Shown in pieces: positions 9,647 to 31,864 of a DNA stretch of 32,067 nt (position 1 is the stretch's first letter; every line of letters begins with the position of its first letter). This DNA comes from Coriobacteriales bacterium (GTDB taxonomy: Bacteria > Actinomycetota > Coriobacteriia > Coriobacteriales > UBA8131): the NCBI GenBank assembly GCA_031277035.1, contig JAISLY010000025.1, positions 1 through 32,067 on the forward strand, written 5' to 3'. The translations under genes and the position numbers were made by a program. The notes under the pieces were generated by a model, which saw nothing but the letters and a program-made list of their open reading frames with translations, was not told the origin of the DNA and ran no database searches.

Positions 9647-9854
9647 TTCGCGGCGGCCTGCTCAACGCTCATCATCGCGCGGCGGCCTTCCCAAAACCTG
9701 TCAGACCTCCAACCACACGGCGGCCTTCCCAAACCCTGCTCAACGCTCATCATCGCGCGGCGGCCTTTCCAAAATCTGTCAGACCTCCAACCACACGGCG
9801 GCCTTTCCAAAATCTGTCAGACCTCCAACCGCGCGGCGGCCTTTCCAAAACCTG
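9647..9854. repeat. Array of 36-40 bp repeats derived from the 3' end of icd
   Basis: On the minus strand the last icd bases (CGGTTGGAGGGCTGA) are followed by several units of the form CGGTTGGAGGTCTGACAGRT, TTTGGAAAGGCCGCC. A second unit type containing GATGATGAGCGTTGAGCAGG is interspersed. Each icd-like unit carries a copy of the stop codon. The array fills the whole icd-ahcY gap and ends just before the ahcY ribosome binding site. No promoter is apparent. Confidence 0.92.
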
Positions 9855-11090
9855 TCAGCCCTCCAACCGTGCGGCAATCTGCTCCATGAAGGCCCGGGTG
9901 GTAAGGCGCGTCGCATTCTCCCGATGCGCAAGCGCATACAGATCGCCGGTCATGGCACCTGAGGAAATGGTCGCCCTCGTCGCCTCCTCAAGGCGATACG
10001 AGAAGTCGACCAGCGCCGCATTGGCATCCATCTCGGCGCGTTTGCGCAAAGCGGCACTCCAGGCAAAGATGGTCGCGACCGGATTCGTCGAGGTCGCCTC
10101 CCCTTTCAGGTGCTGATAATAGTGACGCTGCACCGTACCGTGGGCGGCCTCGTACTCAAAAACTCCGTTCGGCGAGACGAGCACCGAGGTCATCATCGCC
10201 AAAGAACCAAAAGCCGTCGCCACCATATCGCTCATCACATCGCCGTCGTAGTTCTTGCAGGCCCAGATAAAGCCGCCCTCGGAGCGAATGACCCGCGCGA
10301 CCGCGTCGTCAATGAGCGTGTAGAAATACTCGATTTCCGCTGCGGCAAAGCGTGTGCGGTAGTCCTGCTCAAAGACGCGTTCAAAGATGTCGAGAAAGCG
10401 CCGATCGTATACCTTCGAGATGGTGTCCTTGGCCGCAAACCAGAGGTCCTGCCGGGTCTCAAGCGCATATTCCATGCAGGAACGCGCAAAGGATTCGATA
10501 CTGCGGTCGGTGTTGTGCATGCCAAGTACCACGCCGGAGGGGTCGTCGTGCATGACAAAGTCGTGGATGAGCAGGCGTTTTTCTGCCCCAGAGGGCGCGG
10601 TTGCAACCAGTTCGACGGTCGAGCCGGCCAGCGACTGGTCGATGAGCAAATCGACAGCCTTGTAAAGGTCGCCATAGGCATGGCGGGCGATGGTAATAGG
10701 CTTTGTCCAGGTGGGGATATAGGGGCGAATACCTTCGACGAGAATGGGACAGCGAAAAATCGTGCCGTCAAGGATGGCACGCAGGGTGGCGTTTGGCGAC
10801 GGATAGAGGCAGGAAAGACCGTACTCCTCAACCCGCTCGGCATTCGGGGTGATGGTCGCGCACTTGACGCCGACCCCCAGGCGCGCGATGGCGTGCGCGG
10901 CGGCAACGGTCACCTCATCATGCGTTCGTTCTCGCTCCTGTATGCCAAGGTCGTAATACTCGGTCTCAAGCTCGACGAAGGGCTCGAGGAGCAGTTCTTT
11001 TACCCAGGCCCAGATGACACGGGTCATCTCGTCGCCGTCAAGCTCGACAAGGGGTGTCTGCATTTTGATGCGATCAGCTCGCCCAGTCAT
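9855..11090 (-). CDS. icd: NADP-type isocitrate dehydrogenase (eukaryotic-like subfamily)
   Basis: 411 residues. It oxidatively decarboxylates isocitrate to 2-oxoglutarate in the cytoplasm. Family features: VELDGDEMTRVIW near the N-terminus, CATITPNAERVEEYGL, the substrate loop SPNATLRAILDGTIFR, ARHAYGDLYKA, the metal-binding segment KNYDGDVMSDMVA, EAAHGTVQRHYYQ and GEATSTNPVATIFAW. These match the homodimeric NADP enzymes of eukaryotes and some bacteria rather than the E. coli type. The ATG at 11090 keeps the expected RIKMQTPLVEL lead-in; the ribosome binding site is weak and the upstream gene ends 4 bases away, suggesting coupling. Position after leuCD-like genes points to a citrate-to-2-oxoglutarate route. 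Confidence 0.92.
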   Translation of the reverse strand: MTGRADRIKMQTPLVELDGDEMTRVIWAWVKELLLEPFVELETEYYDLGIQERERTHDEVTVAAAHAIARLGVGVKCATITPNAERVEEYGLSCLYPSPNATLRAILDGTIFRCPILVEGIRPYIPTWTKPITIARHAYGDLYKAVDLLIDQSLAGSTVELVATAPSGAEKRLLIHDFVMHDDPSGVVLGMHNTDRSIESFARSCMEYALETRQDLWFAAKDTISKVYDRRFLDIFERVFEQDYRTRFAAAEIEYFYTLIDDAVARVIRSEGGFIWACKNYDGDVMSDMVATAFGSLAMMTSVLVSPNGVFEYEAAHGTVQRHYYQHLKGEATSTNPVATIFAWSAALRKRAEMDANAALVDFSYRLEEATRATISSGAMTGDLYALAHRENATRLTTRAFMEQIAARLEG

Positions 11091-24931: not shown

Positions 24932-25641
24932 GGGAGGGCGGCCCTTTGGAGGGACAGGAGCTCTTCGAGGCCCACAAGGCCCAGGTCGAGCAGGGCGTTC
25001 AGGCGAGCGCGGTCAAAGGTGGCGCGTTCTCCGGTTCCCTGCACCTCGACAAACTCACCATGAGCGTTCATCACGAGGTTCATATCAATCTCCGCCCGGC
25101 TATCCTCGTGGTAGTCCAGATCGAGAAGCAGGCGACCATCCACCATACCAACGCTGATGGCGGCAATCTGTCCAAAGAGCGCATCGCCCTTGCAGCGCCC
25201 CGCCAGACGCCAGGCGGTGAGGGCGTCGCGCAGGGCAACCCAGGCTCCACAGATGGCCGCGGTGCGGGTGCCTCCGTCCGCCTGCACAACGTCGCAGTCC
25301 ACCGTAATCGTTATCTCGCCCAGGGCGTTGAGATCGACGACGGAACGCAGCGAGCGTCCGATGAGACGCTGTATCTCCTGACTGCGCCCGACCGGGCCGT
25401 TGGTCTCACGCCGCGTTCGCTTGCCAGTCGACGCGGGCAGCATCGCATATTCAGCCGTCAGCCAGCCTTTGCCGCTGGACTTTCGCCAGTTGGGCACACC
25501 CTCCTCGATGCTCACGGCGCAAAGTACCCGCGTATCTCCAAAGGAGACCAGACAGGAACCATAGGTATTCTTCAGATACGCGCGCTCAAAGAAAACCGGC
25601 CGCAGAGCATCATCTGCCCGTCCGTCAGTTCGCTGCGCCAT
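24928..25641 (-). CDS. rph: Ribonuclease PH
   Basis: 237 residues, phosphorolytic 3'-5' exoribonuclease that trims tRNA precursors. Full-length family match: LKNTYGSCLVSFGDTRVLCA, the segment from GWLTAEYAMLPAST through NGPVGRSQEIQRLIGRSLR, ITVDCDVVQADGGTRTAAI, LLLDLDYHEDSRAEIDMN and EVQGTGERATF. Start 25641 follows GAGGG by 6 bases and overlaps the murI stop by 17 bases. The murI-rph-rdgB order is a common bacterial cluster and suggests one transcript. Confidence 0.94.
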   Translation of the reverse strand: MAQRTDGRADDALRPVFFERAYLKNTYGSCLVSFGDTRVLCAVSIEEGVPNWRKSSGKGWLTAEYAMLPASTGKRTRRETNGPVGRSQEIQRLIGRSLRSVVDLNALGEITITVDCDVVQADGGTRTAAICGAWVALRDALTAWRLAGRCKGDALFGQIAAISVGMVDGRLLLDLDYHEDSRAEIDMNLVMNAHGEFVEVQGTGERATFDRARLNALLDLGLVGLEELLSLQRAALP

Positions 25642-26602
25642 AGCCTTCCCTCTCCTTTCCATCCTCCTCAAAAATCGCCAGAGCCTCCTCGAGCTCCGTC
25701 GTCGTCACCTGCCAGGGCGCCTCAACCGGATGCGCAAGAATCGCGCTGCCGAGCCGGGCAAAATCCGTCACATCTTTGGCGGTCGTGGCAAAGCGATAGC
25801 GCGGCACCCCCGTATCAGGGGCAAGCTGTCCACGACGACCAAGCGCCTGCGCCACATCATGCGCGGTCTCTTCCGCACTTGATATCAGCTGAACCCCGCT
25901 GCCCATAATCTGCGAGATAAGGGGTGTGAGCAGCGGATAATGGGTGCAGCCGAGCACAAGCGTATCGATGTCGCAGCGCCGCAGCGGGTCGAGATAGTCA
26001 CGCGCTATCTGCTGAAAGGCAGGGCGCAGGTAGATGGCGGAGGTCTGCGCCATGGCGTCCTCGATGGGGCCGCGGCCCAGGCGCAGGCCCTGCTCGACCA
26101 TCTCCACAAAACGGGGAGTGGCAGTCGAGAAGGTCGTAATGCCCGCGTCCAGGGAGCGGATTGCCTGATTGTAGACATCCGAATCGATGGTCGCGGTCGT
26201 GCCAATAACGCCGACTCGGCGCGAGAGGGTTGCCTGGACGGCCGCATGCGCACCGGGTTCAATGACGCCGATAACCGGCACGGGCGCCTCGCGCTGCACC
26301 GTCGTCAACCCGGCAGCCGTTGCCGAATTGCAGGCGATGACGATAAGTTTCACGCCTTGTGCGACCAACCAGGCCGATATGTGCCGCGCAAAGGCCCGTA
26401 TCTCGTCAAGCGGCCGCGGACCGTAGGGACAGCGCAGGGTATCGCCCAGATAGAGGATCGATTCATGAGGAAGACGCCGCGCGATTGCGCGCACGACCGT
26501 CAGGCCCCCGACCCCCGAATCAAAAACGCCAATCGGCCGAGTGGCAAAGGCGCGTTGCGCTCCGTCGCGCCCTGCCCTGTTGTGTTGTGTCGTGTCATCC
26601 AT
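25625..26602 (-). CDS. murI: Glutamate racemase
   Basis: 325 residues. It supplies D-glutamate for peptidoglycan. Key parts: IGVFDSGVGGLTVVRAI, ILYLGDTLRCPYG, the first catalytic Cys in VIACNSATAAG, VIGVIEPGAHAAV, and the second catalytic Cys in LGCTHYPLL. The C-terminal extension of about 60 residues is longer than usual and continues to the overlap with rph. The ATG at 26602 gives MDDTTQ followed by a polar stretch; the frame is open into the upstream repeat array, but that part is repeat-encoded. A TTGCTG/TACTAT pair just upstream could be the promoter, which would make the leader very short. Confidence 0.93.
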   Translation of the reverse strand: MDDTTQHNRAGRDGAQRAFATRPIGVFDSGVGGLTVVRAIARRLPHESILYLGDTLRCPYGPRPLDEIRAFARHISAWLVAQGVKLIVIACNSATAAGLTTVQREAPVPVIGVIEPGAHAAVQATLSRRVGVIGTTATIDSDVYNQAIRSLDAGITTFSTATPRFVEMVEQGLRLGRGPIEDAMAQTSAIYLRPAFQQIARDYLDPLRRCDIDTLVLGCTHYPLLTPLISQIMGSGVQLISSAEETAHDVAQALGRRGQLAPDTGVPRYRFATTAKDVTDFARLGSAILAHPVEAPWQVTTTELEEALAIFEEDGKEREGYGAAN

Positions 26603-26657
26603 TGCGTTCCATAGTATCGGCATTGCCTCAGTCCAGCAAGCCAACGGGGTGTTACGG

Positions 26658-26727
26658 GTTTTTCGTTTAACTGTTTGCAGGTTTTTCATTTAACTGTTTG
26701 CAGGTTGGGGGGAGCTCGAGAAAATCT
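26658..26727. repeat. Repeat array A (23-bp units) with 24-bp tail
   Basis: Two copies of TTTAACTGTTTGCAG (26666-26680, 26689-26703) are linked by GTTTTTCA and preceded by GTTTTTCG, followed by GTTGGGGGGAGCTCGAGAAA plus ATCT. The same tail and units occur in the same orientation at 28118-28248, on the other side of the DUF4143 gene. Confidence 0.93.
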
Positions 26728-26782
26728 CAACCACAGCAGGGTGAATTCTGCCGCCCACCGGCCAAGAAAAACAGCGGCGGAG

Positions 26783-28060
26783 CTATACGCCAAGTGCAGT
26801 AATCGGAAGAACCAGCACGCCATCTTTACGAGTATACGAAAAGTTACACACCCCGCAGATGACCGCCAGAAATGTTGGTGGCTTGCCGCCGGCCTTATGA
26901 ATTTTCTTCTCCAAGGCTTGAAGCGTTCCAGCTGCTACGTCAGCATCCCCGACGCCCAATTTGACCTCCACGCCCGCCCACCTGCCATCTGGCATCTCAA
27001 TAATAGCGTCGACTTCAAGCCCTTCATCATCGTGGTAATGGAAGAGGCGAGCGCCGAGCGACTCTGCATATACTTTCAGATCGCGAATAACCATGTTCTC
27101 AAACATGAAACCAAAGGTCTCCAAATCCCCTTTCAGGTGGTGCATTGTTGCGCCCAAAGCGGCTATGGCCAAGGATGGGTCTACGAAGTGCTTTTTAGGA
27201 GAGACCCGTACCCTATTCCTCGATCTGAGCCTTGGGCTCCACGCTGGCAGCTCTTCGATGACAAAGAGTTTCTTCAGTGCTCCGATATATGCGATGAGCG
27301 TCGGCGTTGAGAAATTGACAGCCCCACCGCTCTCCAAAGTGTCCCGAATCAGTGTCTTGTTGGATACCATGGTCATGTTATTGCGCGCAAGCGAATAGAG
27401 CAGTCGTCGCACTCTTTCTGGCCTACGCTTTTGATAATCAACCTTGCTCATATCTCTGTCGGCGACCTCTTTGACATAATGGGCCGGTATCTCAAGTGCA
27501 CTCTTCTGATCCAGTTCCAAAGCGCCAGGCCAACCGCCCCTCGTGGCCAGCCAGATAATCCTGTCAAGATCAGCACTGTCTTTATGACGGCCGAACTCTC
27601 CGTCAAAGAGTCGAGCCAAGGACACAGAGGCGCTGGAGTCGCCTGACTCGGCAAGGGTCATGGGACGCATACGCAGTCTATATATTCTTCCGGTGCCAGT
27701 ATGTATCGTCGACCTTTGCGGAGGAACCGAAGAGCCCGTAAGAATAAAGCGCCCCTTTTCCTGAGATCGATCGATGGCAAAGCGCGTTGCGTCCCAAAGT
27801 CCGGGGACTTCTTGCCATTCGTCGATAAGATGAGGGGTCTTTCCTTCCAGTGCAGCAAGCGGATCGATCTCAGCCAATAGCCGATTCTGATATCCGCCAG
27901 TAGGGTCGCCCACGTAAAAGACGCTATTGGAGTGATTGAGGCTCGTCCAAGTCTTGCCACACCATTTGCTGCCTTCAACGCAGACGGCTCCAAAGGCTCT
28001 CAACAAATCATCGATCCTGTCGTCAATTATGCGCGGTAGGTACCCTTTTTCGGTAAGCAA
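26783..28060 (-). CDS. DUF4143-type ATPase (AAA + C-terminal nuclease-like fold)
   Basis: About 425 residues. N-terminal AAA domain: GYLPRIIDDRIDDLL, P-loop GSKWCGKTW, Walker B-like PHLIDEWQEVP, sensor FILTGSSVP and the Arg-rich GTGRIYRLRMRPMTLAESG. The C-terminal DUF4143 half includes FENMVIRDLKVYAESLG, HYHDDEGLEVDAIIE, and GVEVKLG, a restriction-fold-like E-x-K. The family's role is unknown; members are often scattered and horizontally acquired. The codon and base composition are clearly less GC-rich than neighbours. TTG 28060 was chosen because AGGAGG lies 4 bases upstream; in-frame ATGs at 28078-28084 lie almost at the predicted transcript start. It is flanked by directly repeated arrays. 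Confidence 0.85.
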   Translation of the reverse strand: MLTEKGYLPRIIDDRIDDLLRAFGAVCVEGSKWCGKTWTSLNHSNSVFYVGDPTGGYQNRLLAEIDPLAALEGKTPHLIDEWQEVPGLWDATRFAIDRSQEKGRFILTGSSVPPQRSTIHTGTGRIYRLRMRPMTLAESGDSSASVSLARLFDGEFGRHKDSADLDRIIWLATRGGWPGALELDQKSALEIPAHYVKEVADRDMSKVDYQKRRPERVRRLLYSLARNNMTMVSNKTLIRDTLESGGAVNFSTPTLIAYIGALKKLFVIEELPAWSPRLRSRNRVRVSPKKHFVDPSLAIAALGATMHHLKGDLETFGFMFENMVIRDLKVYAESLGARLFHYHDDEGLEVDAIIEMPDGRWAGVEVKLGVGDADVAAGTLQALEKKIHKAGGKPPTFLAVICGVCNFSYTRKDGVLVLPITALGV

Positions 28061-28093
28061 TGATCCTCCTGAACGCATCATCATATAGCAGGG

Positions 28094-28102
28094 AGTATAT
28101 CA
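28094..28102 (-). promoter_or_regulatory. Extended -10 promoter of the DUF4143 gene
   Basis: On the minus strand TGATATACT is an extended -10 box. A weak TTAAAT -35 sits 17 bases upstream, inside the last unit of repeat array B. The transcript would start near 28087, leaving TTG 28060 with its strong AGGAGG as the natural start. Confidence 0.5.
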
Positions 28103-28117
28103 TAATAACGGAGAAAA

Positions 28118-28248
28118 TTTAACTGTTTGCAGGTTTTTCATTTAACTGTTTGCAGGTTTTTCATTTAACTGTTTGCAGGTTTTTCATTTAACTGTTTGCA
28201 GGTTTTTCGTTTAACTGTTTGCAGGTTGGGGGGAGCTCGAGAAAATCT
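28118..28248. repeat. Repeat array B: five 23-bp units with the same 24-bp tail
   Basis: TTTAACTGTTTGCAG occurs at 28118, 28141, 28164, 28187 and 28210, separated by GTTTTTCA (GTTTTTCG before the last). It ends in GTTGGGGGGAGCTCGAGAAA plus ATCT, as array A does. The last 47 bp of arrays A and B differ at only one base. There is no variable spacer, so it is not a CRISPR array. Confidence 0.95.
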
Positions 28249-30109: not shown

Positions 30110-31864
30110 TTAGACATACGCCCATGGGGCCAAGAGGTAACCTTGAGAGCGAAAGATCCCTGGGTCTATCGAGGCACAATAGCCGGGTATGTCGCAGTAG
30201 CCAGACGAGGAGCAGTCGAGGGTCGGGAGGCCGGTGGGAGGGCAGACGACAGGCGAGGGGTAGACGCCGGGCATATCCACATCGCGCACGCCTGCACCGC
30301 TCGCCGCGTTCACACCGGTGCCCGTGTCGTCCGCCACATTCACGCCGTGCGCCTTCACGCTGGCGTTTTCTGCGCACCAGGAAGAGTAGGTGTTCAGAAC
30401 GCGCTCCACCTCGCGCGCCGGAAGCAGGCGCGTGGCATGCCCATCCCGAACCTCGAGGGTCTCTCCCCTATCCTGGGTGTCGATGAACAGAACCGAAGAG
30501 ACCGCCGGTCGACCCTTCTCAAGAACGATAATTGACGCAGGTGGTCGTTTGTCGGCAAACAGCCCGCCCGGTAGCGAGATAACGCACTGCAGAACGCCGC
30601 TTTGAGCAAAGCGGGCGCGCAGATCCATCTCAACCCCTTCGCTGGAAACGAGCGGGCTGTTGCTGAGCAGCAATATCCCCAAACCCCGGGCGGATAAAAG
30701 GCTCAGAGTTTGCATAATCCAGGCATAGTTAGCCTTGTTGCTGGGCGGGGGGCCCCAGACCCACCGCGGATCTGTGGGATCAGGCGCACTCTTTGTCCAG
30801 ATTCCGGGATTGGAAGAGGGCATGCAGACGCATGCCTCTGACGGGGGCACTGAGGCCGGATGGACAAGATTTTCAGTGACCGCAACAACATCAACCAACG
30901 CCGTCGATTCATTCATGTGGAGAGACAGGATTCCTTCGATGATACTGAGGACGGCACCGGAGGAGTCGCCCTTTGCGGCATGAGGCTGACGCGCCGGCTT
31001 GCCCGTTGATTGGTGTGCCGGCTTGCCCGTTGATTGGTGTACATGCTTGCCCGTTGATTGGTGTGCATGCTTGCCTGTTGATTTACCTGTTGCCGTGCCT
31101 GCAGGCCAAACCGTTGCGTGGCGCAAAGGATTGGCCTGCCCCTTAAAATCATGCTGCAGCATCTCCGTATGACGTACGCATGATACCAAGTGCGCACAAA
31201 ACGCATCCGACACCTTTGCCACTGCGGCAAAAGATTCAGTATCCTGGGGAGCAGGAAGACTCCGACAGGCCTCAGCCAGCGTATCGAGGCTCACAAAGAG
31301 CGCGCTCCAAGCGCGGCGTAACCGTTCCTCAGGCCAAGGTAGTATCGCTCCGCTCAAGCGATCCAGAAGAAGTTCTCGAACCAAATCATTGCCAGTAAGA
31401 TAGTGGCCGGAGGGCAGGCTGCGCAAAACAGCATGCAAATAGTCAAGCTCACATTCCCTATCAGGAATGACCGCATGGAAAAGCTCTGATGGCATGCCTT
31501 TGGCGCGACAGGGCACCACCACAAGACGATGCCGCAAGGTCTCAACCGTGCCCAGGCAAGCCACCAGCAGACAGGGCTTATCCAGCGTGTAATCGTCTAT
31601 CTGCTCCTGATCAAAACCTCGGGCATAATAGGTGTATTTACCCAGACGACGCAGGCGCTCACGACGCTCAATTTTTCGAGAGAAGGCGTCGGTGACATGC
31701 GCTACGTCTTTGAGCAGCAACAGCGGTGACCTTTCTGGCCAAACCTCCAGAAGCTCAGACGCCAGAAGCGAAACCTCCCTGCTTCCGACAAGGCCGGAAG
31801 CAGGGGATGCGCTCAACTCCTCCAGAGAAGCTTTCATCAAATCCTTAATCATATTCCCTGTCAT
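30110..31864 (-). CDS. Chimeric HsdS-like / HsdM-like protein (partial type I methylase)
   Basis: 584 residues. The N-terminal half resembles a target-recognition domain of type I specificity subunits: KYTYYARGF, ELDYLHAVLRSLPSGHYL and LDRLSGAILPWPEERL, followed by a helical stretch. The middle has a His/Gln/Lys 8-residue repeat (STGKHAHQ and variants). The C-terminal half matches the later part of HsdM: DPRWVWGPPPSNKANYAWIM, then LLLSNSP, VLQCVISLPGGLFADKRPPA and SIIVLEKGRP. The SAM-binding motif I (DPACGxG type) of HsdM is not found, so methylation is doubtful. The C-terminal tail has an unusual Cys-rich segment. No hsdR is in the window. Start 31864 is tentative; ATG 31852 is an alternative. 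Confidence 0.65.
   Translation of the reverse strand: MTGNMIKDLMKASLEELSASPASGLVGSREVSLLASELLEVWPERSPLLLLKDVAHVTDAFSRKIERRERLRRLGKYTYYARGFDQEQIDDYTLDKPCLLVACLGTVETLRHRLVVVPCRAKGMPSELFHAVIPDRECELDYLHAVLRSLPSGHYLTGNDLVRELLLDRLSGAILPWPEERLRRAWSALFVSLDTLAEACRSLPAPQDTESFAAVAKVSDAFCAHLVSCVRHTEMLQHDFKGQANPLRHATVWPAGTATGKSTGKHAHQSTGKHVHQSTGKPAHQSTGKPARQPHAAKGDSSGAVLSIIEGILSLHMNESTALVDVVAVTENLVHPASVPPSEACVCMPSSNPGIWTKSAPDPTDPRWVWGPPPSNKANYAWIMQTLSLLSARGLGILLLSNSPLVSSEGVEMDLRARFAQSGVLQCVISLPGGLFADKRPPASIIVLEKGRPAVSSVLFIDTQDRGETLEVRDGHATRLLPAREVERVLNTYSSWCAENASVKAHGVNVADDTGTGVNAASGAGVRDVDMPGVYPSPVVCPPTGLPTLDCSSSGYCDIPGYCASIDPGIFRSQGYLLAPWAYV
30997..31084. repeat. 24-bp tandem repeat in the HsdS/M-like gene
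   Basis: Three full units (30997-31020, 31021-31044, 31045-31068) and a partial fourth, based on GCTTGCCCGTTGATTGGTGT plus four bases. On the minus strand they encode the octapeptide STGK(H/P)(A/V)HQ repeated in frame between the two halves of the chimera. Confidence 0.95.

Follow-up and report, generated by a model that had tools for sequence, protein, structure and literature searches.

A single gene bounded on both sides by the same short direct repeats raises the question of whether those repeats are the ends of something that moves or whether they act where they lie. Such a gene, encoding a DUF4143 ATPase, is found in the stretch of Coriobacteriales DNA analyzed here (32,067 nucleotides; hereafter, the window), and its repeats were originally predicted to delimit a cassette or site-specific island. 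Comparison with homologs of the gene points to another answer, in which the repeats 5′ of the gene probably serve as its operator and those on the far side are a stray copy.

Results

The right array (28117–28227, minus strand) comprises five 23-bp units (TRF, 4.8 copies) and is the DUF4143 gene's own 5′ array, and the left array (26657–26706, minus strand; two 23-bp units, TRF, 2.2 copies) lies in the same orientation between the 3′ end of that gene and murI. The unit core TTTAACTGTTTGCAGGTT occurs at 26666, 26689, 28118, 28141, 28164, 28187, and 28210, with no further copy within 2 mismatches in the 1.82-Mb assembly (72.7% complete). A 24-bp tail, GTTGGGGGGAGCTCGAGAAAATCT, has exactly two copies in the window, identically oriented, one on the distal side of the right array (28225–28248, minus strand) and one at the left array (26704–26727, minus strand). 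The block common to both sides (26657–26727 and 28178–28248) is 71 bp long with 2 differences, of which one falls within its last 47 bp. TRF and the pattern positions thus bear out the predicted arrays of two and five units with a shared tail in one orientation, the block comparison bears out the predicted single difference in the final 47 bp, and the gene between the arrays is less G+C-rich, as had been noted (52% vs. 59–63% for adjoining genes). Segments of such strength with a 23-bp period did not occur in shuffled sequence (0 found), which excludes chance for the window arrays. Homology outside the 71-bp block was not above chance (score reached by 18% of shuffles after the tail and 23% before the array), and the idea that the flanks beyond the tail are diverged homologs was rejected because shuffles gave it no support. 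The units run head to tail without spacers and have no Rfam match, so they are not a CRISPR array; the promoter scanner likewise returned no match at the arrays. Exact-pattern scans for the window's unit in other genome and viral contigs yielded single matches in unrelated records, which were taken as chance. Elsewhere in the window, a 38/78-bp tandem array with no DUF4143 gene near it lies between ahcY-like and icd-like genes (9657–9875), and an in-frame 24-bp repeat (30996–31083; repeated STGKxxHQ) lies within an N6_Mtase gene ∼2 kb from the DUF4143 gene.

The gene itself (26783–28060, minus strand) was annotated from Pfam, PADLOC, alignment, and a structural model as encoding an AAA+ ATPase with a winged helix and a PD-(D/E)XK nuclease, and its product carries AAA_14 and DUF4143 domains (Pfam). 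Counted from the first ATG, the ORF starts at 28084; translation likely begins at a TTG at 28060, which is preceded by AGGAGG, because this codon is aligned with the ATG of L197, the closest homolog. The PADLOC model PDC-S01 (PDLC04790) matched over the length of the protein (residues 14–431, E = 1.6e-61), and this match, together with the fusion of ATPase and PD-(D/E)XK regions with conserved residues, places it in PDC-S01. In an alignment of 69 homologs, Walker A and B residues were conserved, G36, G41, K42, D86, E87, D357, and E371 were invariant, and K373 was present in at least 90%; we read D357, E371, and K373 as the putative PD-(D/E)XK motif, an assignment of our own. The AlphaFold model is confident (pLDDT 94), and residues ∼216–300 are predicted to follow the helix-helix-helix-strand-strand order expected of a winged helix. 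Fold matches in the PDB were partial (TM 0.2–0.4), an archaeal ATPase coming first, with NLR/CED-4, RFC, Orc1/Cdc6, and DnaA ATPases among the others. A possible terminator (26775–26792, minus strand) consists of a weak stem followed by a T run, a feature whose number was not above that in shuffles.

The probable promoter of the DUF4143 gene (28094–28122, minus strand) consists of TTAAAT (28117–28122, within the last unit of the right array), a 17-bp spacer, and TATACT (28094–28099), with a match of 8/12 that is below the cut-off of the consensus scanner. The right array thus probably overlaps the promoter, and the prediction that one array supplies part of it gains support, if from a weak match. 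The array ends at −57 from the TTG, in keeping with its clade (median, −47). On the other side lies murI (glutamate racemase; 25625–26602, minus strand), identified by Pfam and synteny, at the head of a conserved murI-rph-rdgB block. To judge from position, a possible murI promoter (TTGCTG at 26634–26639 and TACTAT at 26611–26616) is found immediately downstream of the left array. The murI reading frame continues without a stop codon into that array (26603–26689) and could start within a unit; homologs favor a start near 26602.

DUF4143 loci were then collected from the window's family and class, with array detection by a simple periodic score and starts assigned by rule; many of the assemblies are incomplete. 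Defining the window's clade as phmmer matches above 250 bits (score thresholds being our choice), and leaving out one duplicate view of the window, we found a strong direct array within 200 bp upstream in 58 of 81 clade genes, with a period of nearly always 23 bp, and about a quarter of the genes without a clear array. Arrays of 23 bp were present upstream in 66% and downstream in 3%, as compared to ∼1% upstream of 376 other ORFs and none in shuffles, and the array overlapped the best −35 element in 45 of the 58. The direct repeats, at about two helical turns, thus lie at the promoter of the gene for their presumed binder. Besides the window's left array there were two downstream cases, a G+C-rich repeat and the following gene's own array, which leaves the left array as the sole case seen of a clade gene's own unit 3′ of it. 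One locus (L248) holds a tandem pair of clade genes, each with its own, differing 23-bp array. Arrays were also present on all 7 IMG/VR loci (weakest in L321) and on Bacteroides ovatus, B. uniformis, and two Collinsella plasmids; the viral-contig homologs were found with an alignment as query, a single-protein query having found none.

In a tree of 183 genes, 76 of the 97 leaves of one clade (support 1.0) had arrays, as compared to 2 of 52 in the sister clade, and parsimony required 29 changes versus at least 55 in shuffles. A 5′ array over the promoter is thus a widespread arrangement and the rule in one branch of this candidate phage-defense family; among open-access papers, we found no report of gene-private arrays. 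That the arrays are simple VNTRs without function is scarcely credible. Copy number does vary among loci, and other tandem repeats are numerous in this genome; however, neither period nor position changes from family to family even though the units differ, and the arrays belong to the clade and not to its sister. Bacteroidales DUF4143 genes of another branch were considered as further positives and rejected, as they are without 23-bp arrays. A separate DUF4143 branch has 32–33-bp arrays in 9 of 23 genes. Such arrays, corresponding to three helical turns, lie over the promoter at L183, L189, L148, and L190, and L183 and L189, from two genomes of one genus, have a common 20-bp core.

The units are essentially restricted to their own genes, and their sequence differs from gene to gene, also within one genome. 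Genome DNA was read for arrays over 349 kb at first, and the rest was covered by pattern and protein searches. Every low-G+C array of 22–23 bp in those 349 kb adjoined a DUF4143 gene, the units were all different, and the window's unit and that of the C45 paralog were each found only at their own locus in this genome. The original prediction had looked for arrays elsewhere in the genome with different cargo: such arrays exist, but their cargo proved to be DUF4143 paralogs with units of their own. When 400 genomes of the class were searched for one unit type, 13 matches were found across 6 genomes, four at clade genes and two in orphan arrays. In three other genomes, arrays were seen that lacked a DUF4143 gene where one would be expected. 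In G001, the orphan array has the unit type of that genome's C29 gene and a similar promoter, and in G299 and G356, the unit is unlike the one at the clade gene examined in the same genome. Orphan 23-bp arrays at L346 (3196–3299), L336 (1502–1566), and L338 (1499–1561) are intergenic and near gene 3′ ends. The three orphan arrays outside the window head no evident gene, so control of murI by the left array, which we considered and which may still occur, need not be invoked. The left array is best called an orphan copy, which would have arisen by local duplication (i.e., duplication and loss) or by recombination between arrays.

These distributions bear on the proposal that a cassette or island carrying the gene is bounded by the arrays, acting as recombination sites. 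It has on its side the 71-bp direct repeats flanking the gene, the low G+C content of the gene, the orphan arrays in other genomes, and the occurrence of the gene on plasmids. Clade arrays, however, hold a fixed promoter position 5′ of the gene, a gene's own repeat on both sides is confined to the window rather than being the rule, and no recombinase was recognized among the neighboring ORFs scanned. In most relatives examined, the murI block is conserved and the DUF4143 gene is absent beside murI, which, together with its low G+C content, fits horizontal acquisition of the gene; two relatives have a 44–46% identical DUF4143 gene 1.5–2 kb from murI. Comparison of empty sites gave no alignable junction, the gene on the flavodoxin side not being a neighbor of murI in relatives. 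We thus conclude that the repeats probably do not mark the limits of a mobile cassette, and we see only a slim chance for the recombination-site proposal as a whole, with recombination between arrays a possible origin of the extra left copy alone.

The units were also compared with the proteins. By a Mantel-type test, which ignores the tree so that the strength of co-variation is indicative, unit similarity tracked protein identity (rho = 0.26; permutation maximum, 0.16), with a negative reverse-complement control; the closest homolog (72% identical) has a visibly related unit. The winged helix-turn-helix region (wHTH, residues 216–300) carried signal that the rest of the protein did not account for (partial r = 0.26, 0/300 permutations; still 0.22 for pairs with <50% identity), and the ATPase (0.015) and nuclease (0.022) regions carried none beyond overall relatedness. 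Repeat and DNA-binding domain thus co-vary, indicatively and with kinship ignored, suggesting that the protein recognizes the promoter of its own gene.

Discussion

The co-variation of the units with the wHTH and the overlap of arrays with −35 elements together support binding of the arrays by the gene's own product, and autoregulation, as inferred properties of the clade. We consider it fairly probable, from sequence comparison, that the right array functions as a private operator built like iterons, its units bound by the PDC-S01 protein encoded beside it, which would thereby control its own promoter. The AAA+ ATPase/winged-helix/PD-(D/E)XK protein would bind the 23-bp units through its winged helix, and, because the units are spaced by about two helical turns, several protomers could assemble along one side of the helix, covering the −35 element. 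The assembled protomers would repress the DUF4143 gene and hold down the level of a nuclease that might do harm, until the complex was disturbed, for example by a change in ATP state or by titration during invasion. With gene-specific units, paralogs in one genome need not cross-regulate.

The binder might instead be another protein, such as a global factor or the product of a neighboring HTH regulator gene. Small regulators acting on direct-repeat operators of defense islands are known (RptR, PMC12255303), and on two Collinsella plasmids, an HTH gene lies upstream of the DUF4143 gene and could encode the binder there (the regulator genes, at L327 3984–4205 and L328 1019–1255, are directly upstream). 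A binder of this kind is nonetheless unlikely as the general case, as units differ between genes of one genome and vary in step with the DUF4143 protein's own wHTH, and no HTH regulator gene lies directly beside the window's gene. Slimmer than the chance given to the recombination sites is that of the arrays being replication or transposition iterons, with the protein an initiator-like ATPase and promoter control secondary. Direct repeats of about two turns beside an AAA+/winged-helix gene and the remote fold similarity to Orc1/Cdc6, DnaA, and RFC ATPases would accord with this, but the loci are mostly of chromosomal type, a genome may hold up to ∼20 DUF4143 genes, and the fold matches are weak and reflect a common ATPase core.

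Binding of a private array by the gene's own product remains the preferred reading, although orphan arrays are not accounted for by autoregulation alone. A broader proposal, to which we give somewhat more room than to a foreign binder but still hold to be doubtful, is that the PDC-S01 proteins of this clade are mutually insulated, DNA-reading ATPase-nucleases that may be tethered inactive on private arrays acting as sensor or storage sites besides serving as operators, orphan arrays being remnants or remote targets. A private array that co-varies with the winged helix provides a concrete DNA target and a route to predicting PDC-S01 specificity, and private arrays suggest how many similar nucleases can share a genome without cross-talk.

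Among known systems, the pi protein of R6K is an autoregulated plasmid replication initiator with 22-bp iterons, and these resemble the window's array in that both consist of direct repeats with a length of about two turns and adjoin the gene of their binder, here a presumed one. However, pi is the Rep protein of a plasmid replicon, and the window's protein is an AAA+ nuclease of mostly chromosomal loci. Islands and transposons flanked by direct repeats share with the window a direct repeat on each side of the gene, but the clade's repeats are operator-like and normally 5′ only, and no recombinase was recognized. In a Type I R-M defense island, the RptR operator shows that direct repeats within a promoter can mediate repression, and it lies, like the array here, in a defense-gene promoter; it differs in having 9-bp repeats, a small dedicated regulator, and one conserved site, as compared to one private unit per gene in the window's clade (PMC12255303). 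A Thermus gene with AAA_14/DUF4143 motifs was changed 6.6-fold in plasmid-carrying cells (PMC4406477). PDC-S01 is a candidate system, reported as the fourth most common defense system across prokaryotes, and like most PDCs awaits validation (PMC12988326); we found no mechanism for it in the open-access literature. The window's protein is like PDC-S01 in its whole-length HMM match, domain order, and conserved ATPase and nuclease residues (PMC12988326), and differs from the published descriptions that we found in its private promoter array, which marks one clade and not all DUF4143 genes.
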